Origin: a virus
Strand: one strand, 5' to 3'
Length of the DNA stretch: 24,412 nt
IMG/VR virus record: IMGVR_UViG_3300024346_008907
Coordinates: 1-24,412 of that record
Below are positions 2-24,283 of this stretch, one piece after another. The position numbers were made by a program, and so were the translations under genes. The notes beneath the pieces are model-generated. The model did not search any database, was not told where the DNA came from, and was given only the letters and a program-made list of their open reading frames with translations. Every line of letters begins with the position of its first letter. Within the stretch, counting starts at the first letter, position 1.

Positions 2-889
2 ACACCGGGCGATGACCATAACATTTATATTGACACAGACTCGGTATTCTTTTCAGCAGTTCCTTTGATGAACAAACGATACCCCGATTGGAAAACAAAA
101 GACCAAGATACTATTGCAAGTTATGTAGATGCAATTGCAGGTGATGTTCAAGATTATCTTAATAACTTTTACGATATACTTTCGGTAAAGGTATTTAATG
201 TTCCTGCTGACAAACACCGATTGGAAATTAAAAAAGAGTTTGTTGCAAAAGCAGGATTGTGGGTAGCGAAGAAAAGATATGCACAATGGATTATTATGAA
301 CAATGGTGTTCCAATGGATAAGTTGGATGTAAAAGGATTGGATGTAAAAAGGTCATCGTTTCCAAAAGCATTCCAAGAGTGTATGGGAACTGTTCTTATA
401 GATATTTTGAGAGGTAAGAGTGAAGAAGAAATATCAGACTTTGTATTGGCGTTTAAAAAGTCAATGGTTGGTCTTGAAATTAAAAACATCGCTAAAAACT
501 CGGCAGTAAAAGAATTAACCAAATATATGCCAAAAGGAAAAAGACAATTATTTCATTTTGAGAAAGGTGCACCTGCTCACGTTAAGGCTGCAATCTCATA
601 CAATGATTGTTTGAAACATTTTGATGCACCGTTCAAGTATAACCCAATGACCAATGGTGATAAAGTAAAATGGGTATATCTCAAAAATAACCCACTTGGT
701 TTAGATGCAATTGCATTTACAGGATACCAAGACCCACCTGAAATTGAAAACTTTATCAACACTTATATTGACCACAATAAAATCTTTGAACGAGAGTTGA
801 GTGGTAAATTACAAGATTTCTATGATGCAATCGGGTGGGGTCAAGTTATATCAGAACAGAGAACAGCAGAAAAGTTTTTTAGTTTCTAG
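2..889 (+). CDS. 43: DNA polymerase, family B (T4 gp43-like), C-terminal part, 5' end cut by window
   Basis: Replicative DNA polymerase of the phage. The open frame runs in from the window edge, so the N-terminal exonuclease domain and much of the palm are missing. At bases 26-43 the frame reads YIDTDS, the motif C of family B polymerases, whose two aspartates bind the catalytic metals. About 65 codons further on, KKRYA and then KGLDVKRSS match the thumb-proximal KKRY region of T4-like polymerases. The protein ends in EKFFSF, which resembles the short C-terminal clamp-binding peptide of T4/RB69 gp43 (inference). A TTG at base 65 could be mistaken for a start, but it lies downstream of motif C and is internal. 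The sliding clamp and clamp loader genes follow within 7 kb. Family call very secure. Confidence 0.93.
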   Translation, partial: TPGDDHNIYIDTDSVFFSAVPLMNKRYPDWKTKDQDTIASYVDAIAGDVQDYLNNFYDILSVKVFNVPADKHRLEIKKEFVAKAGLWVAKKRYAQWIIMNNGVPMDKLDVKGLDVKRSSFPKAFQECMGTVLIDILRGKSEEEISDFVLAFKKSMVGLEIKNIAKNSAVKELTKYMPKGKRQLFHFEKGAPAHVKAAISYNDCLKHFDAPFKYNPMTNGDKVKWVYLKNNPLGLDAIAFTGYQDPPEIENFINTYIDHNKIFERELSGKLQDFYDAIGWGQVISEQRTAEKFFSF

Positions 890-3267: not shown

Positions 3268-4926
<1,659 letters not shown>

Positions 4927-6410: not shown

Positions 6411-7652
6411 ATGAAAGTACATACAAGTAATAAAGAAAAAGTAGAGTCAATCCTAAAAAATACCAAAATAAGTGGTAAGTTTTGGGATTACACTTTGCAT
6501 TATGACATGGATGACACTTACCACAAGATGAATCCATTAAATCAAGACCATTACTTTGACTTACCCGAATTCAAATGGTCGGATTCTTTGAAAGACCGTT
6601 TTATCTTTGATGTTATGATTAACAATGAAGAAGAACGCGAGATATTCTTTAAGATGTTTGACCACAAACCAACAATTAATTCATATATTCATTATGAATT
6701 AGACCCGCATCCACTTGAAGATTATGAATATGAGTATTCTCATAAGATTCAACCAAAATATCCAATTTATGTAATTACCAAAGGTAGGTGGGAAAAGACC
6801 CTTACGATTGATACATTAGAAGATATGGGTGTTGATTTCAGTATATGTGTTGAACCATCTGAATATGACAATTATATTGCTAATCCAAAAATTGACCCAA
6901 AGAAAGTAATCAAATTACCCGAAAACTTTTCAGAGAGAAAACAAGGTGGTATTCCTGTTAGAAACTTTGTATGGCAACATTCAGTTGATAGAGGGTTTTC
7001 AAGACATTGGATTATTGATGATAATATTCTTGGTTTTTATCGTTGGAATGAAAATACACAAAAACGAATCAGAGATGGTGTATTTTTCCGAGTGATGGAA
7101 GATTTTAGTGATAGGTATGAGAATGTAGGTTTAACTTCTTGCCAATACGCTTCTTTTATTCCATCAATTGATTGTGGTAGAGAGGGGTTTATTGTTAATA
7201 CAAGAACTTACTCTTGTATCTTAATCAACACCGAACTACTTGATAAAAGATTAGAAGAAAGATGGCGTGGAACTTATAATGAAGATACAGATTTAACCCT
7301 ACGAGTATTATCCACAGGTGATTTATGTACAGTTAATTTCAATTCTTTATTGAGTGGTAAGCAAACCACGGGTAGTATGAAAGGTGGAAACACTACTACT
7401 ATTTATGAGTTTGACAAAGAATCTGATGCTGAAAACAAACGATTCACAGGTCTTAAAAAGAAGTTTGATGAACTCAAGGAAAATTGGGGAGACATCGTAA
7501 CTTATACCACAAGTAGGCATAAAGATGGAAGACCTCACCACCACATCGCATATACTAAATTATTTCATCAAGAATTAAAATTGAAGGAAGGTGTAAAGAT
7601 GGAACCAAAAGTAAATAACTATAATATGACATTAGTCAAAAAAACAAATTAA
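6411..7652 (+). CDS. TET-associated-type glycosyltransferase (TAGT), predicted DNA base glycosylation
   Basis: 413-aa protein matching the TAGT family pattern. The core starts at about residue 117 with PIYVITKGRW. A Val-Glu-Pro strand (VEPSEYDNY) follows, then RNFVW at 184-188, HWIIDDNILGF at 199-209 (the IDDN acts as the metal/nucleotide-binding acidic motif), and VNTRTYSCILIN near 262-273. RWRGTYNEDTDLTLRVL at 284-300 and SMKGGNTTTIYE at 322-333 complete it. As known, TAGT enzymes add sugars to oxidised pyrimidines, usually 5-hydroxymethylcytosine, in phage DNA. The first ~110 residues form a separate small domain that resembles a segment seen in other phage DNA-modification proteins (less certain). 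It sits inside the replisome operon. No TET or hydroxymethylase gene is in this window, so the modified base is inferred. Confidence 0.85.
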   Translation: MKVHTSNKEKVESILKNTKISGKFWDYTLHYDMDDTYHKMNPLNQDHYFDLPEFKWSDSLKDRFIFDVMINNEEEREIFFKMFDHKPTINSYIHYELDPHPLEDYEYEYSHKIQPKYPIYVITKGRWEKTLTIDTLEDMGVDFSICVEPSEYDNYIANPKIDPKKVIKLPENFSERKQGGIPVRNFVWQHSVDRGFSRHWIIDDNILGFYRWNENTQKRIRDGVFFRVMEDFSDRYENVGLTSCQYASFIPSIDCGREGFIVNTRTYSCILINTELLDKRLEERWRGTYNEDTDLTLRVLSTGDLCTVNFNSLLSGKQTTGSMKGGNTTTIYEFDKESDAENKRFTGLKKKFDELKENWGDIVTYTTSRHKDGRPHHHIAYTKLFHQELKLKEGVKMEPKVNNYNMTLVKKTN

Positions 7653-7653
7653 T

Positions 7654-7872
7654 ATGAGATTACAAGATATTTGTATAAAGTACCGAATTTCAGATGCATA
7701 TTTGAATTCAAAAGATGATGCTCTTTTAATTGCAGCATCTTCAATTCAAGATTTGATTTCTGAATTAAATCAAGGTGATAGGGGAATTGATGAAAACAAA
7801 AAACAATCCGTTATTACAAAAATGGAAAGAATGATTGAGTTCCTTAAAGATGTAAAAAATTCAGGTGTATAA
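7654..7872 (+). CDS. Unknown small protein between TAGT and clamp loader, 72 aa
   Basis: I do not recognise this 72-aa protein. It looks mostly alpha-helical, with a helix around ALLIAASSIQDLISELN (residues 25-41) and a second one, KMERMIEFLKDVK, near the C terminus. No cysteine cluster or membrane segment is visible. It begins one base after the TAGT stop and its own stop overlaps the clamp loader start as TAATG, so it is likely translated with the replisome genes. Helical character and position could fit a small replisome accessory protein, but nothing in the sequence proves this. Confidence 0.72.
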   Translation: MRLQDICIKYRISDAYLNSKDDALLIAASSIQDLISELNQGDRGIDENKKQSVITKMERMIEFLKDVKNSGV

Positions 7873-8819
7873 TGGCATTTTTTGAAGATAACACAAACGA
7901 AGAAGTAAATAATTCGCTTTGGGTGGAGAAATACCGACCAAAGGTATTAAAAGATTATGTGGGAAATGAACACCTCAAGACCAAAGTTGGTGATTATATT
8001 GAGAGTGGTGATGTTCCTCACCTATTATTTTTTGGTAAAGCAGGAACTGGTAAAACAACTCTTGCTAAATTAATAGTTAATTCAATCAGTTGTGATTATA
8101 TTATCATTAATGCATCTGATGAAAGGGGTATTGATATTATCAGAAATAAAGTAAAATCATTTGCATCAACAGTTGGATTTAAAGATAAAAAAATCATTAT
8201 ATTGGATGAGTTTGATTACATGACTCCCGATGCACAAGCAATGTTGAGAAACTTAATGGAAACTTTTTCTAAACATTGCAGATTTATCTTAACTTGTAAT
8301 TATGTAGAAAAAGTAATTGACCCAATTCAATCTCGTTGTCAAACTTTCCAAATTGTGCCACCTACTAAAAAGGATGTTGCTATTCAAATCTCACAAATTC
8401 TTACTAAAGAAGAAGTAAAATTTGAACCAAAAGATTTAGTTCCTATCATTGATTCATCATATCCTGATATTCGTAAAATTATAAACACTTGCCAATTAAA
8501 CTCATCTAAAGGAGTTCTAAAGGTAGATGTTGCAAATATTATAGATGGTGATATTAAAGTAAAATTGATTGATATTCTTAAATCAAAAGATGACAAGAGA
8601 AACAAATACATGAATGTAAGACAAGCAGTTGCAGATTCTCGTATTCAAGATTTTTCTGAAATGTATGGATACCTTTACGAGAAGATTGATGAATATGCTG
8701 GTGGTAATACCTCAAATGTAATTTTAACCATTTCAGAAGGTCAGTATAAAGATAGTATGGTTATTGACAAAGAAATAACCTTTATGGCAACAATGATTCA
8801 AATAATCGGTTTATTATAG
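7872..8819 (+). CDS. 44: Clamp loader ATPase large subunit (T4 gp44/RFC-like)
   Basis: 315-aa AAA+ protein of the replication factor C/gp44 family. It starts with the family hallmark SLWVEKYRPKVLKDYVG (residues 15-31). Walker A is FGKAGTGKTTLA at about 56-67, and the RFC-box ASDERGIDIIR follows at about 85-95. Walker B is IIILDEFDYM at about 113-122, with DEFD as in phage and archaeal loaders. Sensor 1 is FILTCNY and the SRC arginine finger is in QSRCQTF. It opens the sliding clamp and places it on primed DNA using ATP, together with a small gp62-like subunit. That partner is not adjacent here but is probably at 15278. Translation is coupled to the preceding gene by a one-base TAATG overlap. 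Confidence 0.95.
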   Translation: MAFFEDNTNEEVNNSLWVEKYRPKVLKDYVGNEHLKTKVGDYIESGDVPHLLFFGKAGTGKTTLAKLIVNSISCDYIIINASDERGIDIIRNKVKSFASTVGFKDKKIIILDEFDYMTPDAQAMLRNLMETFSKHCRFILTCNYVEKVIDPIQSRCQTFQIVPPTKKDVAIQISQILTKEEVKFEPKDLVPIIDSSYPDIRKIINTCQLNSSKGVLKVDVANIIDGDIKVKLIDILKSKDDKRNKYMNVRQAVADSRIQDFSEMYGYLYEKIDEYAGGNTSNVILTISEGQYKDSMVIDKEITFMATMIQIIGLL

Positions 8820-8825
8820 TATCTT

Positions 8826-8969
8826 ATGAATAACATATATAAAATGACACTTGATGAATATGTAAAAGATTTAATTGATAAATCTTATACTACAACTTTT
8901 TCATCAAATCCAAATATACAATTCACACAAACAACTACAAACGATAAATTAGAAAACGATGGAAATTAA
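8826..8969 (+). CDS. Possible 47-aa protein between clamp loader and GroES
   Basis: An open frame of 47 codons starts at ATG 8826, six bases after the clamp loader stop, and ends at TAA 8967-8969, overlapping the groES start by 11 bases. It begins MNNIYKMTLDEYVKDLI, an amphipathic-looking helix, followed by a Thr/Asn/Ser-rich low-complexity half. The arrangement fits the tightly packed operon and fills what would otherwise be the largest gap in it. I do not recognise a family. It could also be a spacer that merely lacks stops. Confidence 0.48.
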   Translation: MNNIYKMTLDEYVKDLIDKSYTTTFSSNPNIQFTQTTTNDKLENDGN

Positions 8970-9258
8970 TTTCAAACCATTGGGTGACCGTATTTTGGTT
9001 AAACCTGAAGAACAAGAACAAAAATCAAAGGGAGGGTTAATTCTCACAGATTCAGTCCAAAGAGGACAAAAAGTATATGGAACTGTTGTTGCAGTTGGAA
9101 CAGGTATTTTCTCACAAAGTGGGGAGAAAATTCCGGTAACTGTTCAAGTTGGGGATAGAGTACTTTATACTAAAAATGAGGCCTCGAATAAAATCACATT
9201 GGAAGGAGAAGATTTACTTCTATTCAATGAACACGAACTGATAGGATTTGTCAGATAG
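8959..9258 (+). CDS. groES: Co-chaperonin GroES, phage-encoded
   Basis: 99-aa GroES, the expected length (about 97 in E. coli). It begins with FKPLGDRILVKPEE. The mobile loop with KSKGGLILTDS (about 22-32) carries the hydrophobic triad that docks on GroEL. VVAVGTG, VQVGDRVLY and a C-terminal LLLFNEHELIGFV complete the beta-barrel pattern. It should cap the GroEL encoded at 3298. It is the last gene of the clamp operon and is separated from groEL by the replisome genes. A tyrosine or aromatic roof loop is not obvious in the VGTGIFSQSGEKI segment. Confidence 0.96.
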   Translation: MEINFKPLGDRILVKPEEQEQKSKGGLILTDSVQRGQKVYGTVVAVGTGIFSQSGEKIPVTVQVGDRVLYTKNEASNKITLEGEDLLLFNEHELIGFVR

Positions 9259-9293
9259 TGTAAACGGAATGTAAGGGGGTAGAGACTTTTACA

Positions 9294-9328
9294 TTAATCA
9301 AAATGTTATGTTTAATTTAATCAAAATG
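9294..9328 (+). repeat. 12-base direct repeat upstream of the TonB receptor gene
   Basis: TTAATCAAAATG occurs at 9294-9305 and again at 9317-9328, 23 bases apart start to start, in the 81-base gap between groES and the receptor gene. A weak promoter-like TATGTTTA lies between the copies at 9307-9314. About two helical turns between copies suggests possible regulator binding sites on one DNA face. An AT-rich coincidence is possible. Confidence 0.5.
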
Positions 9329-9339
9329 AAAATTTAATT

Positions 9340-12057
9340 ATGAAAAAACTATTATTAGTTGGTTTAATGATGTTATCATCATTTATGACTTTCGCACAGA
9401 TTAGTGGGAAAGTAGTTGATGTAGATAGCAAACAACCATTACCAGGTGCAACCATCCTCGTCAAAGGTACGAAAACGGGTGTTGTAACTGATTTTGATGG
9501 AAAGTTTACTATTGAAACAGCAACCGCAGGAAATACACTTGTAGTATCGTATCTTGGATACACATCACAAGATATTACTGCACAAAACGGAATTGTGGTT
9601 GGGTTAACTGCCCAAATAAACGCATTGGAAGAAATCGTTCTTACATCAGGAGTTATTGATGTTGCAAAAGTTCGTGAAACTCCAGTTGCAGTATCAACTA
9701 TTGGAGCAGCAGAAATTGCTTTAAAAATTGGTAACCAAGAATTCCCTGAAATTATGAACTCTACACCTGGTGTGTACGCAACCAAACAAGGTGGTGGATA
9801 TGGGGATTCTCGTATCAACCTTCGTGGTTTTGATATGCGTAACACATCTTTCCTTATTAACGGGCAACCTGTTAATGATATGGAAAGTGGTTGGGTGTAT
9901 TGGTCTAACTGGCAAGGTTTAACCGATGTTGCAAGTGGTATCCAAATCCAAAGAGGATTGGGTGCATCTCGTTTAGCAGTTCCATCAGTAGGTGGTACTG
10001 TTTCTATATTTACTAAAGCTGCCGAAAAAGAACAAGGTGGTTCATTATCTCAAACTATTGGTAACGATGGTTACTCTAAAACTGCATTCGTTTACAATAG
10101 TGGTAAAAATGATAAAGGATGGGCAACCTCTTTATTACTTTCTAAATGGAGTGGAGATGGTTACATCTATGGAACTCAAGGTGAAGGAACAACTTACTTT
10201 GCTGCAGTTGGTTATGCACCCGAAGGTTCTAAACACCAACTTAACCTTTCAGTATTAGGTGCAGGACAATGGCACCACCAAAGAACTTCATGGGTATCAA
10301 TCCGTGATTATCAAAACTTTGGTAAAGACCATAAAGAAGGTATTGATAGAAGATGGTCATCAGATGCTGGTTTCTTGAATGGTGAAGAATACAACATGAG
10401 AAGAAACTTCTACAACAAACCATTGGCAACTTTTAACTGGGATTACCAAATTAAAAGTAACTTGAAATTGAACACTTCTTTATACGCATCTGCGGGTAGA
10501 GGTGGTGGAACCGGTCCACGTGGTGGAAACTTCAGAGCAGCTGCCACTGATATGTTCCCATTTAATATCGATTTAACTACACATTACTTGGAAAACAATA
10601 GAGGTACTCGTGATGCAAATGGATTCATCAATTTTGATGCAGTTGTTGCTTCTAACCAAGCTACAACTTCTCCTTACACCGGTGCTATTAGTGGATTTGA
10701 TGGACAACTTATTGGTTCTAATGGATTCCGTAACGATGGTGTAAATCGTGCAGTTCTTGTTCGTAGAGCATCTATGAACTCTCATGACTGGGTTGGTGGT
10801 ATTTCTAACTTGGAAGGCCAATTTGGTAAATTCAGAACTTCAATTGGAGTTGATTTAAGACAATACAAAGGATATCACTATCGTGTATTGAATGACTTAT
10901 TAGGTTTGGATGGTTACTACTCTACTGGTAACAAGAACTCTGCTGGTCAAATCATCAATACAACTGTTGATGCATCTCCATTCTCTGATACAGGTATTAG
11001 AGGACCAAAAATTGATTACTATAATAATGGTATCGTAGGATGGCAAGGTGTTAATGGATTGGTAGAATATCAAGGAGACAAACTAACTGCAGTATTACAA
11101 GGAGGTAAATCGAATCAATCTTTCCAAAGAGAAGATTTCTTTGACCAACCTGAAAAACCAATCTCTGAAACTCACAACCAAGGTGGTGGGTATCTTAAAG
11201 GTGGTGCTAACTTAAATCTTGATACAAAATCAAACGTATTTTTTAATGCTGGTTTGATTTCAAGACAACCACAATTCGATGCAGTATTCCCTAACTTTGC
11301 TAACAATGTTAATCCAGATTTACAGAATGAAGAAATTCAATCAGTAGAATTAGGATATGGTTTTGTTGGTGATAAAGTTTCTTTCAATATAAACGCATAC
11401 TCTACCTCATGGGGTAATCGTTTCATCACCACATCATTATTTGGTGCACAAGGTGACCAAGGAACTGCTCAATTCAGAAACATTGATGTACAACACAATG
11501 GTGTTGAGTTTGAAGGTACTTATAGACCAACATCTCGTTTGATTCTTAAAGGTATGTTATCAGTTGGTGATTGGAGATATACAAAAGATTTCACATCAGA
11601 ATTATTTGATGCAAATCAACAATCAGTTGGAACTGGTACTCTTTACTTAAAAGATGCAAAAGTAGGTGATGCAGCACAATTAACTGCAAACTTATCTGCT
11701 GATTATCGTGTTGGTAAAACCAACTTTGATATCTCTTACAGATTTGTAGATGGATTGTATGCAGATTACGCAATCACTGATGCAGTATTTAAAGAACCAG
11801 GAAATGCTGGAGCTCTTAAATTACCATCTTACGGATTAGTAGATGGTGGTGTATCAACTCGTTTCAAATTATTTGGTAACGATGCATCATTAAGAGTAAA
11901 CATTAATAACTTATTTGATACTGTTTATATTGCAGAATCAGAAACTAACATCCATGCAACTGCAGGTTCACAGACTTGGAATGGGGTAGATGTTAATAAC
12001 TCTGTATGGTTCGGGTTTGGAAGAACTTGGAACACATCATTGAAATATAGATTTTAA
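9340..12057 (+). CDS. TonB-dependent outer-membrane receptor, Bacteroidota type
   Basis: 905-aa outer-membrane receptor. The N terminus, MKKLLLVGLMMLSSFMTFAQ, is a typical signal peptide with likely cleavage near Ala19/Gln20. A carboxypeptidase-regulatory-like domain follows (about 21-95) with the pattern GKVVDVDSKQPLPGATILVKG and TDFDGKFTI. The plug domain spans about 105-230, with PEIMNSTPGVYATKQGG, INLRGFDMRN and IQRGLGASRLAVPSVGGT. The remainder is barrel, ending in the aromatic C-terminal signature LKYRF. Such proteins import siderophores, vitamins or glycans using TonB energy, and the ligand cannot be read here. It lies alone between groES and a strong terminator. By eye it uses more AAC, TTC and TAC codons than its neighbours. 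A full-length copy in a phage replication region is very unusual. Confidence 0.95.
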   Translation: MKKLLLVGLMMLSSFMTFAQISGKVVDVDSKQPLPGATILVKGTKTGVVTDFDGKFTIETATAGNTLVVSYLGYTSQDITAQNGIVVGLTAQINALEEIVLTSGVIDVAKVRETPVAVSTIGAAEIALKIGNQEFPEIMNSTPGVYATKQGGGYGDSRINLRGFDMRNTSFLINGQPVNDMESGWVYWSNWQGLTDVASGIQIQRGLGASRLAVPSVGGTVSIFTKAAEKEQGGSLSQTIGNDGYSKTAFVYNSGKNDKGWATSLLLSKWSGDGYIYGTQGEGTTYFAAVGYAPEGSKHQLNLSVLGAGQWHHQRTSWVSIRDYQNFGKDHKEGIDRRWSSDAGFLNGEEYNMRRNFYNKPLATFNWDYQIKSNLKLNTSLYASAGRGGGTGPRGGNFRAAATDMFPFNIDLTTHYLENNRGTRDANGFINFDAVVASNQATTSPYTGAISGFDGQLIGSNGFRNDGVNRAVLVRRASMNSHDWVGGISNLEGQFGKFRTSIGVDLRQYKGYHYRVLNDLLGLDGYYSTGNKNSAGQIINTTVDASPFSDTGIRGPKIDYYNNGIVGWQGVNGLVEYQGDKLTAVLQGGKSNQSFQREDFFDQPEKPISETHNQGGGYLKGGANLNLDTKSNVFFNAGLISRQPQFDAVFPNFANNVNPDLQNEEIQSVELGYGFVGDKVSFNINAYSTSWGNRFITTSLFGAQGDQGTAQFRNIDVQHNGVEFEGTYRPTSRLILKGMLSVGDWRYTKDFTSELFDANQQSVGTGTLYLKDAKVGDAAQLTANLSADYRVGKTNFDISYRFVDGLYADYAITDAVFKEPGNAGALKLPSYGLVDGGVSTRFKLFGNDASLRVNINNLFDTVYIAESETNIHATAGSQTWNGVDVNNSVWFGFGRTWNTSLKYRF

Positions 12058-12071
12058 TAATATTTAATAGA

Positions 12072-12096
12072 GGGGGAGGATTTCCTCCCCTTTTTT
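12072..12096 (+). terminator. Strong intrinsic terminator after the TonB receptor gene
   Basis: Stem GGGGAGG (12073-12079) pairs perfectly with CCTCCCC (12084-12090) around an ATTT loop, followed by six T (12091-12096). It is the most GC-rich short stretch in the window. The next gene starts at 12100, only three bases later, and no promoter is visible between them. Confidence 0.9.
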
Positions 12097-12099
12097 ATT

Positions 12100-12816
12100 A
12101 TGGATATATCAAATAAAATCACAGTAGTAATTCCTTCATATAATGAGGAATTTTACATTTATAATACTTTATGGTATTTATCTCGCCAAGAGTTTAGTGG
12201 TAAGTTAAAAGTTATTATTGCTGATGGAAATTCTACCGATAGAACTTTAGAACGAATTTCAAAAGCATCAGAAGATTTTAAAAATCTTGATATACAAATT
12301 ATCGAAGGTGGTATGGTTGGTGTTGCTAGAAACAATGGGGCAAAACTCGTAACTACTCCTTATATTTTATTCATAGATGCAGATTCAATATTACTTCAAA
12401 AAGATATTCTAATTGAAACTTTAAAATATTCAGAAGATTATGGTATCATAACTTGCAAACAAAAATCAACTGTAAGTGGATTTAAATCTAAACTAACTTG
12501 GGATATATTTAATTTTGTTAGAAAAATAATGCCTGAAACATTTTGTACCGGCTGTTATTTTTTTATACATACTGATAAATTTAGATTGTTAGGTGGGTTT
12601 GATGAAACTTTAAATAATTCAGAAGATTTTTGGTTAAGTAGAAAAGTACCTAAAAAATATTTTAAAATTTTAGATAGATATATTGGTCAAGATGCCCGTA
12701 GGTTTAAAAAAATGGGTTATTTAAATTTTTTAAAAATAGTTATTTTAAATTATTGGTATAGAAACGATATCCGATGGTTTAAAAAAGATGTTGGATATTG
12801 GGAACCTTATGAATAA
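12100..12816 (+). CDS. Glycosyltransferase family 2
   Basis: 238-aa GT-A fold glycosyltransferase. The N terminus reads ITVVIPSYNEE (7-17), with ADGNSTDRT at 41-49. The metal-binding motif DADS is at 93-96, and the acceptor-side ED motif is in NNSEDFWLSRK (172-182). These are the standard GT2 marks, and no membrane helices are evident. It transfers a sugar from a nucleotide donor; acceptor unknown. Its stop overlaps the start of an LpxH-like phosphoesterase by eight bases, so the two are probably made together, which hints at an envelope lipid or LPS substrate. The start at 12100 has no ribosome binding site and follows the receptor terminator by three bases. Very AT-rich codon use. Confidence 0.9.
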   Translation: MDISNKITVVIPSYNEEFYIYNTLWYLSRQEFSGKLKVIIADGNSTDRTLERISKASEDFKNLDIQIIEGGMVGVARNNGAKLVTTPYILFIDADSILLQKDILIETLKYSEDYGIITCKQKSTVSGFKSKLTWDIFNFVRKIMPETFCTGCYFFIHTDKFRLLGGFDETLNNSEDFWLSRKVPKKYFKILDRYIGQDARRFKKMGYLNFLKIVILNYWYRNDIRWFKKDVGYWEPYE

Positions 12817-16906: not shown

Positions 16907-18298
16907 ATGACGGAAGTAAAAAAGAAAAAGAAGATTCTTTTATTATCAGATGATTTAAGGATGTCATCTGGTATTGCAACAATGTCCAAAGAATTAGTAT
17001 TTGGTACATTAGAACATTATGATTGGGTACAATTAGGAGCTGCAGTTGACCATCCAGAGAAGGGTAAGGAAATTGACCTCGGTGAAGATGCTCGTAAAAT
17101 TAGTGGTATCGAAGATGCTTCTCTTAAAATCATTCCATGGAGTGGTTACGGGGATGCAAATATTCTTCGTGAACTAATTATGAGGCATCAACCCGATGCA
17201 ATCTTACACTTTACTGACCCAAGATATTGGAGATGGTTGTATGAGATGGAAGCAGAGTTAAGACAAAATGTTCCAATTCTTTTTTACCACATTTGGGATG
17301 ACTTACCCGACCCAAAATACAATAGAGATTATTATGAATCATGTGATTGGTTGGGCTGCATCTCAAAACAAACCTATGGTATCGTTAATCGTGTTGGTAA
17401 GATTGAATCAGAAACAATTAAACCATTAGAAGATTGGCAAGTTTCTTATGTACCACATGGTATTAATGCAAATCTATATAAACCAACTGAAGTACCCGAA
17501 GATTTTAGAAAACAAATTCTTGGTGATAAGGATTATAAGTTTGTCCTTTTTTGGATGAACCGAAACATTAAGAGAAAACAGCCATCAGATGTAATTTGGG
17601 CATTCTCTAAATTTGTAGATGGATTACCACAAGAAGATAAGGATAAGGTTTGTTTGGTAATGCACACTGCACCAATAGACCAAAATGGTACTGATTTATT
17701 CAAAGTTGCAGAAACACTTGCACCTGGTTGTGATATTAAGTTCTCTGACCAACGAATCACACAAGAACAATTAAACCTATTATATAACATTTCAGATGTT
17801 ACAATCAACATTGCTGGTAATGAAGGATTTGGTTTAGTTACTGCAGAATCAGTTATGGCAGGAACACCGACAATTGTAAATGTTACAGGTGGATTACAAG
17901 ACCAATGTGGATTTAAGGTAGATGGCAAATATCTAACTGCAGATGATTATATTGAAATAGGTTCTCTACATGATTGGAGAAAGTGGGAAGATAAAGTAAC
18001 ACATGGTGAATGGGTTAAACCGGTTTGGTCAAGAGTTCAAACTATGGTAGGTTCAGTTCCAACTCCTTATATCATTGACGATAAAGTTGATATTTACGAA
18101 GTAACTGATGCAATTCGTTATTGGTATGATATTCCACGTGAAGAAAGAATAAAACGAGCATTAGTTGGTAGACAAGAATTTTTGGGTGAAATGGGATTGA
18201 GTAGAGAAAACATGTGTAAAACACTTGTCGATGGAATCGAAACCACTTTCAAAAATTGGAAACCGAAGAAAAAGTTTAATGTTTATAAAATCAGATAA
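16907..18298 (+). CDS. Glycosyltransferase family 4-like (GT-B fold)
   Basis: 463-aa GT-B glycosyltransferase. The N-terminal Rossmann-like start is KKILLLSDDLRMSSGIATM (8-26), with the small-residue loop typical of GT4. YHIWDDLPDPKYN and CISKQTYGIV mark the acceptor half, and SYVPHGINANLYKP the domain hinge. The donor-binding motif NEGFGLVTAESVMAGTP at about 303-320 has the E-x7-E pattern. Retaining transfer from a nucleotide sugar is expected; donor and acceptor are unknown. It follows the RHH gene and its stop overlaps the next start as TAATG. A second, distinct GT4 lies at 18569. Confidence 0.92.
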   Translation: MTEVKKKKKILLLSDDLRMSSGIATMSKELVFGTLEHYDWVQLGAAVDHPEKGKEIDLGEDARKISGIEDASLKIIPWSGYGDANILRELIMRHQPDAILHFTDPRYWRWLYEMEAELRQNVPILFYHIWDDLPDPKYNRDYYESCDWLGCISKQTYGIVNRVGKIESETIKPLEDWQVSYVPHGINANLYKPTEVPEDFRKQILGDKDYKFVLFWMNRNIKRKQPSDVIWAFSKFVDGLPQEDKDKVCLVMHTAPIDQNGTDLFKVAETLAPGCDIKFSDQRITQEQLNLLYNISDVTINIAGNEGFGLVTAESVMAGTPTIVNVTGGLQDQCGFKVDGKYLTADDYIEIGSLHDWRKWEDKVTHGEWVKPVWSRVQTMVGSVPTPYIIDDKVDIYEVTDAIRYWYDIPREERIKRALVGRQEFLGEMGLSRENMCKTLVDGIETTFKNWKPKKKFNVYKIR

Positions 18299-18576
18299 TG
18301 AGTAAACCAATTTTCATCGTTCGCTTTCCTGGTTATTGGACAATGAGTCAAGTTGAAGTATCTCGTGAAGCGATATACAAAATGAAAGATTTAAACGAAG
18401 ATTATCATGTAATGGTTTTACAGGATAATGAAGTAGAATCTATTAGATTTGAATGTTATAATTCACCACACGAACCAGAAAAATTGGAAAATATAACTAA
18501 ACTTACTCAAATATCAATTGAGAGATGTTTAAGACAAGAAGAAGAACGAAGAATTAAAGAATTAGAAAATGAATAA
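18298..18576 (+). CDS. Unknown protein between two GT4 genes, 92 aa
   Basis: I do not recognise this 92-aa protein. It begins KPIFIVRFPGYWTMSQVEVSR, continues with a strand containing YHVMVLQDN, and ends in a long charged helix (QEEERRIKELENE) that could be a coiled coil. It overlaps the upstream gene by one base and the downstream GT4 by eight bases, so it is certainly placed for co-translation. A small alpha/beta protein serving the glycosyltransferases or merely carried with them is equally possible. Confidence 0.75.
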   Translation: MSKPIFIVRFPGYWTMSQVEVSREAIYKMKDLNEDYHVMVLQDNEVESIRFECYNSPHEPEKLENITKLTQISIERCLRQEEERRIKELENE

Positions 18577-19828
18577 ACCACTATTAGTATTTCAAGCACC
18601 TATCGCTACTCGTTCGGGGTATGGCGACCATAGTAGAGACATCCTTAAATCTCTTTTTGATTTGGATAAGTATGATGTCAAAATTGTACCAACGAGATGG
18701 GGGAATACTCCACAAGACCAAATTGACCCTCAAACAGAATTTGGTCAAAAGATATTACAAAATATTGTAACTAAATTAGATAGGCAACCTGATATTTACA
18801 TACAAGTTTCAGTTGCAAATGAATTTAGAAAACTTGGTAAATACAACATCGGTATTACTGCTGGAGTTGAAACTACCGTTGCACCAAAAGAATTTTTAGA
18901 TGGTGGTAATCAAATGGATTTGATTATTACTCCTTCTGAATTTACCAAAGATGTGTTGGTTAAAACATCTTATTCTCAAGTTGATAAGAATACTCAACAA
19001 GTTTTAGGTGAAATCAGATTACAAAAACCAGTTGAGGTTTTATTTGAAGGAGTTGACACTACAATTTTTAGTTCAAAGTCGTCAACTTCGGTATTGGATT
19101 CAGTTGATACTGATTTTAATTTTTTATCAGTAGGACATTGGTTAGGTGGTGATTTAGGACAAGATAGAAAAGATATGGGAATGGTTGTTAAAACATTCTG
19201 TACTGTATTTAAGGGTTTACCAAAAGGAAAACAACCTGGTTTAATTTTAAAAACATCGGGTGCAGGATTCTCGGTAGGTGAGAGAGAAACTATGGCTCAG
19301 AAAATTAAAGACCTTACATCGGAGTTTGGTGATTCATGTCCTCCAATACATTTAGTGTGGGGTGATTTATCAGAATCGGAACTAAATTCACTATACAACG
19401 ATGCTAAAATAAAAGCAATGGTTTCATTTACCAAAGGTGAAGGATATGGCAGACCTTTGGCAGAATTCGCAACAACAGGTAAACCAATCTTGGTTTCTAA
19501 TTGGTCGGGTCATTTAGATTTCTTACCAAAAGAAAATGCAGTTTTACTTGAAGGAGAGCTTAAAGAAGTTCATCCAAGTGCTGCAAATCAATTCTTATTA
19601 AAAGAATCAAAATGGTTTACCGTTGATTATAGTAAGGCTGCTCAAAAAATGTTTGATGTTCATAAAAATTATAATACTTATTTAGAAAAGTCAAAAGGAT
19701 TGAAGACAAACATTCAAAAGAACTTTACATTAGATAAGATGACTCAAAAGTTGGATGAAATTTTATCCAAGTATGTTAAGGTTCAACAAAAGATTGAGTT
19801 GAAATTGCCTCAAATCAAAAAACTATAA
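18569..19828 (+). CDS. Glycosyltransferase family 4-like, second copy (GT-B fold)
   Basis: 419-aa GT-B glycosyltransferase. The start KPLLVFQAPIATRSGYGDHSRDI (3-25) has the glycine-rich N-terminal loop. IGITAGVETT and LIITPSEFTKDVL lie in the acceptor domain, and VLFEGVDTTIFS is the domain hinge. NFLSVGHWLGG opens the donor domain, and KGEGYGRPLAEFATTGKP at about 288-305 is the donor-binding E-x7-E site. It differs clearly from the GT4 at 16907, so the two are not a recent duplication. Stop and next start share TAATG. Donor and acceptor unknown. Confidence 0.92.
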   Translation: MNKPLLVFQAPIATRSGYGDHSRDILKSLFDLDKYDVKIVPTRWGNTPQDQIDPQTEFGQKILQNIVTKLDRQPDIYIQVSVANEFRKLGKYNIGITAGVETTVAPKEFLDGGNQMDLIITPSEFTKDVLVKTSYSQVDKNTQQVLGEIRLQKPVEVLFEGVDTTIFSSKSSTSVLDSVDTDFNFLSVGHWLGGDLGQDRKDMGMVVKTFCTVFKGLPKGKQPGLILKTSGAGFSVGERETMAQKIKDLTSEFGDSCPPIHLVWGDLSESELNSLYNDAKIKAMVSFTKGEGYGRPLAEFATTGKPILVSNWSGHLDFLPKENAVLLEGELKEVHPSAANQFLLKESKWFTVDYSKAAQKMFDVHKNYNTYLEKSKGLKTNIQKNFTLDKMTQKLDEILSKYVKVQQKIELKLPQIKKL

Positions 19829-20352
19829 TGAGTTATACAAGACAATATAAATCATTTCTAAAACCTGAAAAGAGAATTTCTCGTAGTCAGATAAAACCAA
19901 GAAATATTTATCGTATAACCACTTACACAGGTGGTGACCCGGTAACTAAAAGTGGTGAAGATGCAAGATATGTTTTTGTAATTGGTATAGTTGATGGTAA
20001 AGCTCATTGCATTAAATTAAATGAAATAAAACCATTAGATTTTACCAATTTCATAAATAAATTACGAGATAAAAGAATACCAATTGGCTCAGACCAAATG
20101 TTAATGTTGTTGTTAAAAAAGTTTTCAGTAGATGGAAAATCTTTATTTGAATCTTATATAAAAAACGATTCAAAAATTTACTCATCAAAGTTGGGTAATT
20201 ATAGAACATATCTACTTGAAAGTATTCAAAATGTATATGAAATCAGATTTGAAGAAGATTTCTTACGAGAACTATTTAAAGAAGGTTCTACACAATCAAC
20301 AAGACAAGAAGTAATAACAAATGAAATAAATGAAGATATAGATAATGAATAG
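19828..20352 (+). CDS. Unknown phage protein, 174 aa
   Basis: 174-aa protein without recognised enzyme motif. The N terminus is basic (SYTRQYKSFLKPEKRISRSQIKP). A beta-rich middle reads RYVFVIGIVDGKAHCIKLNEI. A helical part (FINKLRDKRI, LMLLLKKF) follows, and the C terminus is acidic (TNEINEDIDNE). The strand with VDGKAHCIKLNEI recalls small beta-barrel proteins conserved in large T4-like phages, but the function is not known to me. It overlaps its neighbours by one and eight bases, inside the sugar operon. Confidence 0.78.
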   Translation: MSYTRQYKSFLKPEKRISRSQIKPRNIYRITTYTGGDPVTKSGEDARYVFVIGIVDGKAHCIKLNEIKPLDFTNFINKLRDKRIPIGSDQMLMLLLKKFSVDGKSLFESYIKNDSKIYSSKLGNYRTYLLESIQNVYEIRFEEDFLRELFKEGSTQSTRQEVITNEINEDIDNE

Positions 20353-21343
20353 AGTATTAATTACAGGAGTAGCAGGACTACTTGGTTCACGATTAGCAGA
20401 TTGGTTAATTGAAAATAAAGAAGATGTTATAGTTTGTGGTATTGATGATTTGAGTGGTGGGTATAAAGAAAATATACATCCTCAAGTTCTCTTTTATCAA
20501 ATGAATCTTACCGAACACCCAATTGAAGAAGTTTTTGAAACTTTTAAACCTGATTATGTATTTCACTTTGCTGCTTATGCTGCCGAAGGCCTTTCTCCAT
20601 TCATCAGAGAATATAATTATGTAAATAACTTGCAAGCAACTGCTGCAATAGTAAATAATTGTATTAAACATGATGTTAAACGATTGGTATTCACATCTAC
20701 TCTTGCAGTTTATGGACATGGTTATGGTGGTATTTTCGATGAAGCTCAAATTCCAAAACCAATTGACCCATACGGTGTTGCAAAGTATGGATGTGAGATG
20801 GATATTCAAATTGCAGGTGAACAGCATGGATTAGATTGGTGTATTATCAGACCACATAATGTTTATGGAGTAAAACAAAACATTTGGGATAAGTACCGAA
20901 ATGTCTTGGGGATTTGGATGTTCCAACATTTAAACGGACAACCAATGACAATCTTTGGTGACGGTGAACAAACTCGTGCATTCTCATTCATTGATGATTC
21001 ATTAGAACCACTTTGGAATGCAGCAATAAGACCTGAAGCATCCAAGGAGATTATTAACTTGGGAGGCATTGAAGAAATTTCAATCAAATATGCATCAGAA
21101 GTTTTAAGAGAAGTTATTGGTGAAGGTGAAGTTATTCATTTAGAAGGAAGACATGAAGTAAAACATTCTATTCCAACCTTCCAAAAATCAGTAGATATAT
21201 TAGATTTTAAACATCAAACAAACTTGAAAGAAGGTTTAACACAAATGTGGGAGTGGGCACAAAAACAACCGATGCGAGAAAGATTTGTGTGGCCAGAATA
21301 TGAATTAGAAAAGGGTATTTATTCTTTTTGGAAAAATAAATAA
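20345..21343 (+). CDS. NAD-dependent sugar-nucleotide epimerase (extended SDR, GalE-like)
   Basis: 332-aa extended short-chain dehydrogenase/reductase. The NAD-binding loop is TGVAGLLGSR (7-16), and HFAAYAAEG fits the conserved AA strand. The catalytic region reads FTSTLAVYGHG (about 114-124), with YGVAKYGCE (about 143-151) giving the Tyr-x3-Lys pair. RPHNVYG and a FGDGEQTRAFSFIDD stretch are typical of UDP-glucose 4-epimerases and related dTDP/GDP-sugar enzymes. It interconverts or modifies a nucleotide sugar that the surrounding glycosyltransferases may use. Exact substrate is uncertain. The start overlaps the 174-aa gene by eight bases, and the stop is followed directly by the next ATG. 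Confidence 0.92.
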   Translation: MNRVLITGVAGLLGSRLADWLIENKEDVIVCGIDDLSGGYKENIHPQVLFYQMNLTEHPIEEVFETFKPDYVFHFAAYAAEGLSPFIREYNYVNNLQATAAIVNNCIKHDVKRLVFTSTLAVYGHGYGGIFDEAQIPKPIDPYGVAKYGCEMDIQIAGEQHGLDWCIIRPHNVYGVKQNIWDKYRNVLGIWMFQHLNGQPMTIFGDGEQTRAFSFIDDSLEPLWNAAIRPEASKEIINLGGIEEISIKYASEVLREVIGEGEVIHLEGRHEVKHSIPTFQKSVDILDFKHQTNLKEGLTQMWEWAQKQPMRERFVWPEYELEKGIYSFWKNK

Positions 21344-21967
21344 ATGAAAACAATATCATTTGCAGTTACGGTTTGTAATGAAATTTTAGAGTTAACCAAA
21401 CTACTTAATTTTTTACAAAATACTATTAGAGAAGAAGATGAAATCGTAATTCAATACGATGAACAATCGGTTACTCAAGATGTTTTAGAGTATCTTGATA
21501 TTATGAAAAAAATGCATGGTTATACTATTGTAGGATTTCCTCTTAATAAAGACTTTGCAACTTATAAAAATAACCTAACCAAACATTGTACAAAAGATTA
21601 TATTTTTCAATTGGATGCCGATGAAATTCCACATGAAAATTTGGTAAGGTGGTTATCTGACGTATTGGATGATAATCCGGTAGATGTGATATTTGTTCCC
21701 CGAGTAAATACAGTTGAAGGTTTAACACAAGAACATATTCAGAAATGGAGATGGAGTGTTAATGAAAAAGGTTGGGTTAATTTTCCTGATTATCAACTTC
21801 GTATCTATCGAAGAACCGATGATGTTATGTGGATGAAACCTGTACATGAAACTATTACAGGTTATAACACTTTCTCTAACTTCCCTGCAGAAGAAGAATG
21901 GTCTTTATATCATCCAAAAGATATAGATAGACAAACTCGTCAGAATGAATTTTACGAAACTATATAA
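21344..21967 (+). CDS. Glycosyltransferase family 2, second copy
   Basis: 207-aa GT-A glycosyltransferase. It begins ISFAVTVCNEILELTKLL (4-21), has NKDFATYKNNL and the DADE metal site at 91-94, and later DYQLRIYRRTDDVMWMKPVHE, a C-terminal motif pattern of small GT2 proteins that modify LPS-type acceptors. There is no membrane helix. It is the last gene of the RHH-to-GT2 operon and is followed by a promoter at 21972. Acceptor unknown. Confidence 0.9.
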   Translation: MKTISFAVTVCNEILELTKLLNFLQNTIREEDEIVIQYDEQSVTQDVLEYLDIMKKMHGYTIVGFPLNKDFATYKNNLTKHCTKDYIFQLDADEIPHENLVRWLSDVLDDNPVDVIFVPRVNTVEGLTQEHIQKWRWSVNEKGWVNFPDYQLRIYRRTDDVMWMKPVHETITGYNTFSNFPAEEEWSLYHPKDIDRQTRQNEFYETI

Positions 21968-22003
21968 TATATTTGTAAAATATAAAAATAATTTGTATCT
22001 TTG
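21968..22003 (+). promoter_or_regulatory. Bacteroidota-type promoter (possibly tandem) for the UDP-sugar dehydrogenase operon
   Basis: TTTG at 21972-21975, 20-base spacer, TATCTTTG at 21996-22003 followed by TA. The -33 box is also the end of a TATATTTG (21968-21975), so a second, upstream promoter may overlap. ATATTT-GTA-AAATAT (21969-21983) is a dyad over the -33 box. The leader to ATG 22018 is about ten bases. Confidence 0.78.
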
Positions 22004-22017
22004 TAAAAAATAAAAAT

Positions 22018-22836
22018 ATGATATTAGGAATAGTAGGACAAGGTTTTGTTGGTAATGCAGTTTACCAAAAATTCAAAAATTATTATGAGGTAAAAACATT
22101 TGATTTAGATTCTTCTAAAGCAAATTCAACATTTGAAGAGGTTTCTGAATGTGATTATGTATTTGTTTGTTTACCAACTCCAATGAATTCGGATGGTTCA
22201 TGTAATACCGATATAGTAGAGGGTGTTATTAAACAACTCGATGAGATTGGTAAAACAAAAGGTATTGTAGTTAAATCAACAATCCCACCAGGAACAACTG
22301 AAAAGTGGAATGAAAAATATAACACTAATGTTATATTCAATCCAGAATTTCTTACCGAAAGAAATGCAGTTTCGGATTATGAAAATCAGAATAGAATTAT
22401 TTTAGGTGGTCCAAGACCAACCTCAACTGAATTGAAACAAGTATTTTCAAAAGTATTTCCAAAAGCACATATTATTAAAACCAATTCAACCTATGCTGAG
22501 ATGGTTAAATATACAACCAACACTTTTCTTTCAGTTAAAGTTTCTTTTGCAAACGAGATTTATCAGTTATGTGAAAAGGTTGGTGCAGATTACGATAAAG
22601 TAATTGAATATGCAACGATGGATGAGCGATTGGGAGAATCTCATTGGGGAGTTCCTGGCCACGATGGTGATTTTGGATTTGGTGGACATTGTTTCCCTAA
22701 AGACCTCTCTGCATTATTACATCTTACAAAAGAATTGGGTACAACTAATAATGTTTTAGAAGCAACTCAAAAAACTAATAATGAACTTCGTAAAAACCGT
22801 GATTGGGAAAGTATGAAGGGTAGAGCAGTAGTATGA
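22018..22836 (+). CDS. UDP-glucose/GDP-mannose dehydrogenase family, short form lacking the C-terminal domain
   Basis: 272-aa dehydrogenase. The NAD site is GIVGQGFVGNAV (4-15), followed by VCLPTPMNSDG and VVKSTIPPGTT. The central linker is AEMVKYTTNTFLSVKVSFANE, with the catalytic Lys/Asn region. The nucleophilic cysteine, Cys225, lies in GFGGHCFPKD. Family members usually have about 390-440 residues. Here the protein stops soon after the active-site cysteine, so the C-terminal UDP-binding Rossmann domain is missing. The frame is intact and the stop overlaps the next start (ATGA), which argues for a natural short form rather than a broken gene. It would oxidise a UDP- or GDP-sugar to the uronic acid if active. 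Confidence 0.88.
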   Translation: MILGIVGQGFVGNAVYQKFKNYYEVKTFDLDSSKANSTFEEVSECDYVFVCLPTPMNSDGSCNTDIVEGVIKQLDEIGKTKGIVVKSTIPPGTTEKWNEKYNTNVIFNPEFLTERNAVSDYENQNRIILGGPRPTSTELKQVFSKVFPKAHIIKTNSTYAEMVKYTTNTFLSVKVSFANEIYQLCEKVGADYDKVIEYATMDERLGESHWGVPGHDGDFGFGGHCFPKDLSALLHLTKELGTTNNVLEATQKTNNELRKNRDWESMKGRAVV

Positions 22837-23720
22837 AAATAACTTTTATATATGCATATGAAGGTGAAGAATGGTCAACACCAATGGCTATTGCAAAAGA
22901 ATTCGAATCACGAAATTGGGAAGTTGAATTCGTTTCCATAGGTTCTAATAGATTACAAAATTGGAATGATAAAGAACTTTCGAAATGGATTGAATCAAGA
23001 CCAAAAACTGATATAGTTCTTTTCATGGATTGGGGTAGATTTGACTCACCTTTACTTTATAAAAAATTAGTAGATGCATTTTGGATACAAGAAAGTGGAG
23101 ATGACCCTCAAAACTTTGAAAGAAATTATCCAAAATCATCTCGTTTTCATTTAACTCTTACACCTGATATGGACTCAATGGTTGAATATCAAAAAAGAGG
23201 AATAAATGCAGATTTTTGGACACACTTTGCAGACACACGAGTTCAGTATCCACTTCAGTTAGAACCTGAATATGTTGCAGTAACTACTCGTGGGGTTGGT
23301 AGTTCTGAATTTTTAGATACACTTACTCAACATGGTGGTGGTACTATTGGAAACAAAAATAATTTAGGTCCAAAAGAACATACTGAATTTTTAAATAAAG
23401 GTAAAATGGTTATTCAGAATTCAAGGTGGGGTGAAATTACTCGAAGAATTTTTGAAGGAATGGCATGTGGAAAACTCGTTCTATGTGATAGATTAAGCGA
23501 ATCAAAAAAAATACATGAACTATTTAAAGAAGGTGAAGAAATTGTATTCTACGATGATATAGTGGATTGTATTAATAAAATAAATTACTATCATCAGAAT
23601 GAAGATGAACGAGAGCGTATAGCTGAAAACGGATACAAAAAAGTATATACACATCATACTCAAAAACAAAGAGTTGATTATATTATAAAAAAATGGAACG
23701 AATTTAAAAATCATAAATAA
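22833..23720 (+). CDS. Glycosyltransferase, CgeB/Glyco_trans_1_2-like (GT-B)
   Basis: 295-aa GT-B protein. The C-terminal half carries the donor-side pattern of the Glyco_trans_1_2 group. RIFEGMACGKLVLCDRL lies at about 204-220, then KIHELFKEGEEIVFYDD, then ERERIAENGYKKVYTHHTQKQR. The N-terminal half, starting KITFIYAYEGEEWSTPMAIA, is more divergent. The sugar donor is unknown. Start overlaps the dehydrogenase stop as ATGA, and its stop overlaps the methyltransferase start as TAATG, so all three are coupled. Confidence 0.87.
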   Translation: MKITFIYAYEGEEWSTPMAIAKEFESRNWEVEFVSIGSNRLQNWNDKELSKWIESRPKTDIVLFMDWGRFDSPLLYKKLVDAFWIQESGDDPQNFERNYPKSSRFHLTLTPDMDSMVEYQKRGINADFWTHFADTRVQYPLQLEPEYVAVTTRGVGSSEFLDTLTQHGGGTIGNKNNLGPKEHTEFLNKGKMVIQNSRWGEITRRIFEGMACGKLVLCDRLSESKKIHELFKEGEEIVFYDDIVDCINKINYYHQNEDERERIAENGYKKVYTHHTQKQRVDYIIKKWNEFKNHK

Positions 23721-24283
23721 TGACATTTTCTGAATTTTACGAAGCATCGAAATTTAAAAGTGATAAAGGAACAACACACGACTATATCAACGGATTTTAT
23801 TCTGATGAATTTACACCTAAACGAAACGATAGATTATCAATATTAGAAATAGGAGTGCATAGAGGTCCTTCTATAAAGTTATTGAAGGATTGGTTTATAA
23901 ATTCTAATATAACCGGCATCGACCCATTTGGGGATGGATTGCCCGAAACCATGGCAGATGATATTAGAAAAATGGTAGATGCAACGATTATACAAGCCGA
24001 TGCATATACATCCGAAGTTTTGAATATGTTCAGAGATGATAGTATAGATTATTTAATAGATGATGGACCTCACACATTAGATTCTCAATTATTTTCAATA
24101 CAATTTTGGTTTCCAAAGGTAAAAACAGGTGGAACTATGATTATAGAAGATATCCAAAATTTTGATATAGATAAAAACAAAATAGATGATTTGTGTAACG
24201 AGTTAAATTTAAATTATCAACTTATTGATTTGAGACAAAATAAAAAAAGAAAAGATGACGTTCTTTTGATATTCAGAAAATAA
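23720..24283 (+). CDS. SAM-dependent methyltransferase, class I small-molecule or sugar type
   Basis: 187-aa class I methyltransferase. The opening SDKGTTHDYINGFY is common in methyltransferases of polysaccharide clusters. SAM motif I is ILEIGVHRGPS (41-51), with GIDPFGDG after strand 2, LIDDGPHTLDS as motif IV-like (about 113-123) and GGTMIIEDIQ as post-motif (137-146). Its place between two glycosyltransferases suggests O-methylation of a sugar, which is an inference. A protein or small-molecule target is possible. It lacks DNA methyltransferase motifs such as DPPY. Confidence 0.87.
   Translation: MTFSEFYEASKFKSDKGTTHDYINGFYSDEFTPKRNDRLSILEIGVHRGPSIKLLKDWFINSNITGIDPFGDGLPETMADDIRKMVDATIIQADAYTSEVLNMFRDDSIDYLIDDGPHTLDSQLFSIQFWFPKVKTGGTMIIEDIQNFDIDKNKIDDLCNELNLNYQLIDLRQNKKRKDDVLLIFRK

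Follow-up and report, generated by a model that had tools for sequence, protein, structure and literature searches.

A TonB-dependent receptor gene of T4-like phages and its apparent exchange with bacterial chromosomes

Aquatic Bacteroidota take up nutrients mainly through TonB-dependent receptors (TBDRs), which are also common receptors of phages. The porin Lc of prophage PA-2 replaces OmpC, which is the phage's own receptor. Lc and NmpC resemble the protein described here in being phage-borne outer-membrane proteins thought to replace a receptor, but they are porins of temperate phages, whereas the present protein is a TBDR of a T4-like phage. The lipoprotein Llp of phage T5 is likewise a phage protein that acts at a TBDR, and its complex with FhuA (8a60) is among the PDB matches of the model described below. 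Llp, however, is a small blocker and not a receptor. The closest described case is a TBDR named 'SusC', known in the marine megaphage Mar_Mega_1 and in LR745206 and proposed there to be an uptake gene (PMC9723777). The Mar_Mega_1 report is the only one on phage-carried TBDRs that was found in the open literature, and no paper on TBDRs as receptors of flavobacterial phages was found there.

The gene analyzed here is, like 'SusC', a TBDR gene on a phage genome. The similarity of the proteins is limited, however: LR745206 matches over just 20% of the length at 34% identity, and the 'SusC' of an uncultured marine phage (A0A8D9FQQ5), the sole full-length viral TBDR among the BFVD matches listed, is 13% identical in a structural alignment. 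Unlike 'SusC', the present gene belongs to an ortholog group found again and again in T4-like phages and exchanged with their hosts. As far as the open literature tells, an ortholog group of this kind appears to be new, as do the other receptor types of the relatives and the mosaic chromosomal allele.

The window, that is, the whole stretch of 24,412 nucleotides that was analyzed, contains an uninterrupted open reading frame that starts with ATG and encodes a complete TBDR. According to PHROGs and Pfam, the surrounding replication block comprises DNA polymerase B, a sliding clamp, a clamp loader, an exonuclease, groEL and groES, the last of which ends 81 bp upstream of the receptor gene. The features are:

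2..889, + strand: DNA polymerase B, 3' part (context; phrog_262)
3298..4926, + strand: groEL (context; PF00118, phrog_5725)
7872..8819, + strand: clamp loader (context; phrog_168)
8959..9258, + strand: groES (context; PF00166)
9268..9295, + strand: hairpin in the leader of the TBDR gene, downstream of groES (stem kept in the window and in contig L001 through changed bases)
9340..12057, + strand: TonB-dependent receptor, 905 residues (open reading frame, Pfam, model, PDB matches)
9340..9396, + strand: signal peptide, residues 1-19, MKKLLLVGLMMLSSFMTFA (sequence; helix at the N-terminus of the model)
9400..9615, + strand: CarboxypepD-regulatory-like N-terminal domain (Pfam PF13715, residues 21-100)
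9619..9660, + strand: probable TonB box and linker, LEEIVLTSGV... (sequence and alignment; conservation among phages 0.74)
9670..10014, + strand: plug domain (Pfam PF07715; phage-bacterium identity 0.90)
10015..12054, + strand: β-barrel, 22 strands in our reading of the model, with a C-terminal F at its end (Pfam, model, PDB matches)
12069..12094, + strand: intrinsic terminator with an 11-bp stem and a T-run (sequence downstream of the TBDR gene)

The sequence-only reading had placed a full-length receptor with a signal peptide, a CarboxypepD-regulatory domain, a plug and a barrel end between groES and a strong terminator of a T4-like replisome region. The setting is borne out by PF00166, the PHROGs assignments and the terminator, and the architecture by Pfam, the predicted structure and its PDB matches. 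The matches to CarbopepD_reg_2 (residues 21-100, E 5e-20), Plug (111-219, E 4e-12) and the TonB_dep_Rec β-barrel (356-858, E 5e-12) all exceed the gathering cut-offs. In the AlphaFold2 model (pLDDT 81.7, pTM 0.76), a helix at the N-terminus is followed by a small β domain, the plug and a barrel, which has 22 strands in our reading of the DSSP string of the model. Its PDB matches are the full-length TBDRs PqqU (9c4o, target TM 0.79), FhuA (about 0.76) and FecA (about 0.8), the overall range being about 0.73-0.81. The plug and the 22-stranded barrel that define a TBDR are thus found by Pfam, the model and the PDB matches, with the strands read from DSSP, and inspection of the sequence and alignments adds the signal peptide, the probable TonB box and the C-terminal aromatic residue. 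Judging from its sequence, the protein keeps every element required of a transporter. PqqU, FhuA, FecA and OprC match similarly, and the fold therefore does not point to any one ligand. Membership in the SusC/RagA family was considered and rejected: model TIGR04056 scores 85.8 bits against a cut-off of 368, in the N-terminal part only, and no SusD partner adjoins the gene, whose neighbors are groES and a glycosyltransferase-like ORF.

The nearest matches of the clamp loader in phage records are less than 47% identical and the top one is itself metagenomic, so this phage group is without a close cultured relative in the collection searched. At 6411-7652 there is a TET-associated glycosyltransferase domain (PF20691), with an HNH nuclease and a DNA methylase upstream; the domain suggests that the DNA of this phage may be hypermodified. 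At 16907-24283, glycosyltransferase-like genes, a nucleotide-sugar epimerase and more sugar-related ORFs form a run whose order is largely kept in related phages.

Every phage record used here is a metagenome assembly, and a host-type gene could have entered such a record by chimeric assembly or bacterial contamination. This explanation is hardly credible and was rejected. The independent contig L001 (sample 3300009059), near-identical to the window with a few base differences in the leader, runs from an HD-phosphohydrolase gene to GT16907 and covers both junctions at which a chimera would have to be joined (9259-9340 and 12057-12100). A scan of IMG/VR found 141 contigs that encode relatives of the TBDR, and the best 80 of the 141, which are 64-100% identical, were kept. 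Genes of the window's block surround the receptor gene in about 50 of these 80 loci, with differing exact neighbors. It follows groES and precedes a kinase or glycosyltransferase in the window, L004 and L013, lies between the clamp and kinase genes in L028 and L041, comes after the clamp loader in L017, and is found between orf15245 and the exonuclease in L037 and L076. Record G008 (252,603 bases) carries the TBDR gene on one contig with T4-type capsid protein gp23, portal and terminase genes, and its DNA polymerase is 74% identical to that of the window's group. Record G037 (113 kb) combines the TBDR with gp23 and a polymerase at 57%. Because most of the 44 records are fragments, gp23 was found in only two of them and terminase in one. 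The same ortholog is also present in other phage lineages, on contigs with polA-type polymerases nearby (L057, L064) and near ribonucleotide reductases or thymidylate synthase (L030, L065), a tail fiber (L059) or a helicase (L052). These findings show that the TBDR is a genuine, maintained gene in a group of T4-like phages, whose hosts we infer to be Bacteroidota.

Among the clamp-loader loci of at least 9 kb, which were fetched by similarity to the clamp loader and not to the receptor, 14 of 36 contain the window-type TBDR, making it an accessory gene of this phage group. In two relatives that lack it, the replication block encodes a different outer-membrane receptor: a 37%-identical TBDR, which is a different PF00593 receptor, in L166 (1644-4187), and an Oar-type barrel protein of 1091 residues (PF25183) in L167 (4974-8249). 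When whole records were searched for plug domains, three more (G050, G053, G055) proved to have a TBDR at their far end, and G008 to have a second one. By NCBIfam the G050 receptor is TIGR01782-like and the second G008 receptor is B12/hemin (BtuB/hemin)-like, both scoring below the curated cut-offs, which brings the other receptors of the relatives to four types. The BtuB/hemin-like protein (658 residues; L244, 5052-10220) lies between two ORFs, at least one of which has an apparent signal peptide. ORFs with apparent signal peptides also cluster near the TIGR01782-like receptor at the contig end (L245).

The gene probably forms a strongly expressed unit of its own. In most related phages a short hairpin of differing sequence lies at the same distance from the TBDR start codon. 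These hairpins often precede GGTTA and an AT-rich leader; a possible promoter motif, GGTTA...TTTAATTT, occurs upstream of many phage TBDR genes, but is too inconsistent to be claimed as a common element. The earlier observation that the gene has more C-ending codons than its neighbors holds: their share at F/Y/H/N/D codons is 0.43, the maximum of the window. Of the two origins proposed for it, high expression fits and foreign composition was rejected. GC3 (0.21) equals that of the neighbors, and over the phage TBDRs the C-ending share is 0.43 against 0.25 in neighboring genes, with GC3 at 0.23 and 0.22. The bias is the highest of the locus in 48 of 51 syntenic loci. The major capsid gene exceeds it in both records that hold one (gp23 0.56 and 0.55 in G008 and G037; TBDRs 0.43 and 0.47). 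Because GC3 is that of the neighbors and the bias resembles that of gp23, the codons point to a probable expression-type bias, which together with the leader hairpin and terminator fits such a unit.

Nei-Gojobori estimates of dN/dS, which are limited by saturation, are about 0.04-0.27 for the closest phage pairs, with a median of 0.19 over 1286 pairs, and show purifying selection on the phage copies. The predicted extracellular loops are about as conserved as the strands, both among phages (0.76 and 0.77) and between phages and bacteria (0.68 and 0.70). With the plug at 0.90 between phages and bacteria and only four consistently phage-specific columns, the alignment does not suggest a decoy whose surface has been changed.

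The gene has a chromosomal counterpart. Relatives of the TBDR are encoded in 280 bacterial stretches, from which 80 loci were kept; in 33 of the 80 a pgi-type gene (glucose-6-phosphate isomerase, by our reading of the sequence) lies about 200 bp upstream. In each of ten bacterial genomes checked, with 19-57 candidate receptors scored, a single TBDR matched at E 1e-60. By these sequence comparisons the phage protein is orthologous to a TBDR that Flavobacteriia and further Bacteroidota/Balneolota encode on their chromosomes. The pgi-linked TBDR of Flavobacteriia shares its architecture, loops and plug and up to 78% of its residues. It is chromosomal and single-copy, whereas the phage genes have their own leader, a location in the replication block and a more uniform signal peptide (0.62 among phage copies, 0.30 among the variable bacterial ones). 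The bacterial neighbors (pgi, a DUF3108-like gene and others) point to no substrate. In the family to which the genome of L137 belongs, 138 of 199 genomes have a relative, and the phage-type version is a minority type, because only 8 reach at least 53% identity over the full length while most full-length relatives are at 39-48%. Versions 62-71% identical to the phage type occur in Cytophagales and Balneolota, from which we infer a probably wide horizontal spread.

It had been suggested that the gene might be a recently captured host gene, and a tree with host receptors had been proposed as a check. In the tree of 161 sequences that was built, phage and bacterial TBDRs interleave, and well-supported branches force at least 14 changes of label. 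A clade of 26 rows is nonetheless all viral (SH-aLRT 100). Trees of the barrel and of the N-terminal part are both interleaved, the latter being poorly resolved. Recombination occurs inside the gene and any one tree is therefore only approximate. Among phage pairs the barrel mostly follows the core genes (core 89.7%, barrel 87.4%). A simple recent capture was rejected in view of the deep all-viral clades; the gene has diversified within phages and moved repeatedly between phages and chromosomes. Locus L144, the pgi locus of a 385-kb chromosomal contig, combines a bacterial N-terminus with a barrel that most resembles those of the phage clade to which the window belongs, a mosaic signal reached in none of 5000 permutations for each of nine parent pairs. 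The pgi gene of L144 reads as two ORFs, and the contig may therefore contain sequencing errors. Taken at sequence level, the data show exchange of the TBDR between phages and host chromosomes. The interleaved tree and the L144 mosaic would also suit a gene that persists mainly by recombining with host alleles and is of little benefit to the phage. This is unlikely, however, given the purifying selection, a codon bias above that of the neighbors, the separate leader and terminator, and an identity that mostly tracks the core genes.

Exchange also affects the barrel separately. In host pairs with near-identical flanks the barrel is either kept or very different. The Flavobacteriales MAG loci L128 and L130 have flanks 95.7% identical over 11 ORFs and barrels 70.8% identical, the whole barrel having been replaced in a chromosome. 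In L085, L137, L152 and L144 the flanks are mostly 90-94% and the region from the signal peptide to the plug 91-97% identical, with barrels at 71-80%. Phages swap barrels as well (L005/L013, core 93% and barrel 73%; L017/L027, 92.7% and 78.5%). The swapping in hosts hints at surface-directed selection on the receptor, and it bears on the main rival of an uptake role, receptor replacement or superinfection exclusion. Here the phage would flood the cell surface with its own receptor allele, thereby displacing, titrating or masking the resident version used by competing phages or by itself. Wholesale replacement of the host barrel between kept flanks is what would be expected of a surface target under attack; the swapping of alleles by phages, the different receptor types of relatives and the precedent of Lc agree with it. 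This explanation nevertheless remains a tentative one: the phage loops are no different from the bacterial loops, resident outer-membrane receptors are stable, which would make replacement slow on the time scale of lytic infection, and no gene for lysogeny was seen in the window.

The chances appear to be about even that the receptor encoded by the phage is functional, is made in large amounts and keeps up the uptake of its ligand in the infected cell. The gene would be transcribed from its own leader, strongly translated, and the product exported by the Sec and BAM machineries to the outer membrane of the host. Powered by the TonB of the host, it would keep importing a ligand, probably a small one, while the phage replicates. 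The phage would benefit from the sustained uptake, the gene being an auxiliary metabolic gene at the nutrient gate, and by carrying one of several receptor types each phage lineage could match the limiting nutrient of its host. In keeping with such a gene, it is of host type, lies in a real phage genome and is maintained by selection. The conservation of the loops and the variety of receptor types favor transport, and the 141 viral contigs with relatives, the roughly 50 of the 80 kept loci that share the block, the gene set of G008, dN/dS, the codon bias and the presence of one copy per genome are also in its favor. Against it, many close phages carry no TBDR in the sequence at hand (window type in 14 of 36), and the surface-directed selection suggested by barrel swapping among hosts is not predicted by uptake alone. 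An intact and probably strongly expressed barrel would also allow the receptor to reach neighboring cells, for example on outer-membrane vesicles, or to make receptor-less cells infectable, thus enlarging the pool of hosts. Such display is very unlikely, as nothing identifies this TBDR as an entry receptor and shed receptors would trap virions too.

Beyond uptake by the infected cell, it is conceivable, if speculative, that lytic phages are reservoirs and vectors of receptor alleles, which express their own version, swap host barrels by recombination and alter the phages and nutrients that a bacterium accepts. A TBDR carried, selected and exchanged by T4-like phages connects the way in which viruses reprogram nutrient uptake with the evolution of the bacterial surface. 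It offers a concrete gene with which to ask whether phages feed or guard the cells they infect and whether they drive the turnover of receptor alleles. Viruses may both feed infected cells through this TBDR and help to reshuffle a bacterial surface protein.
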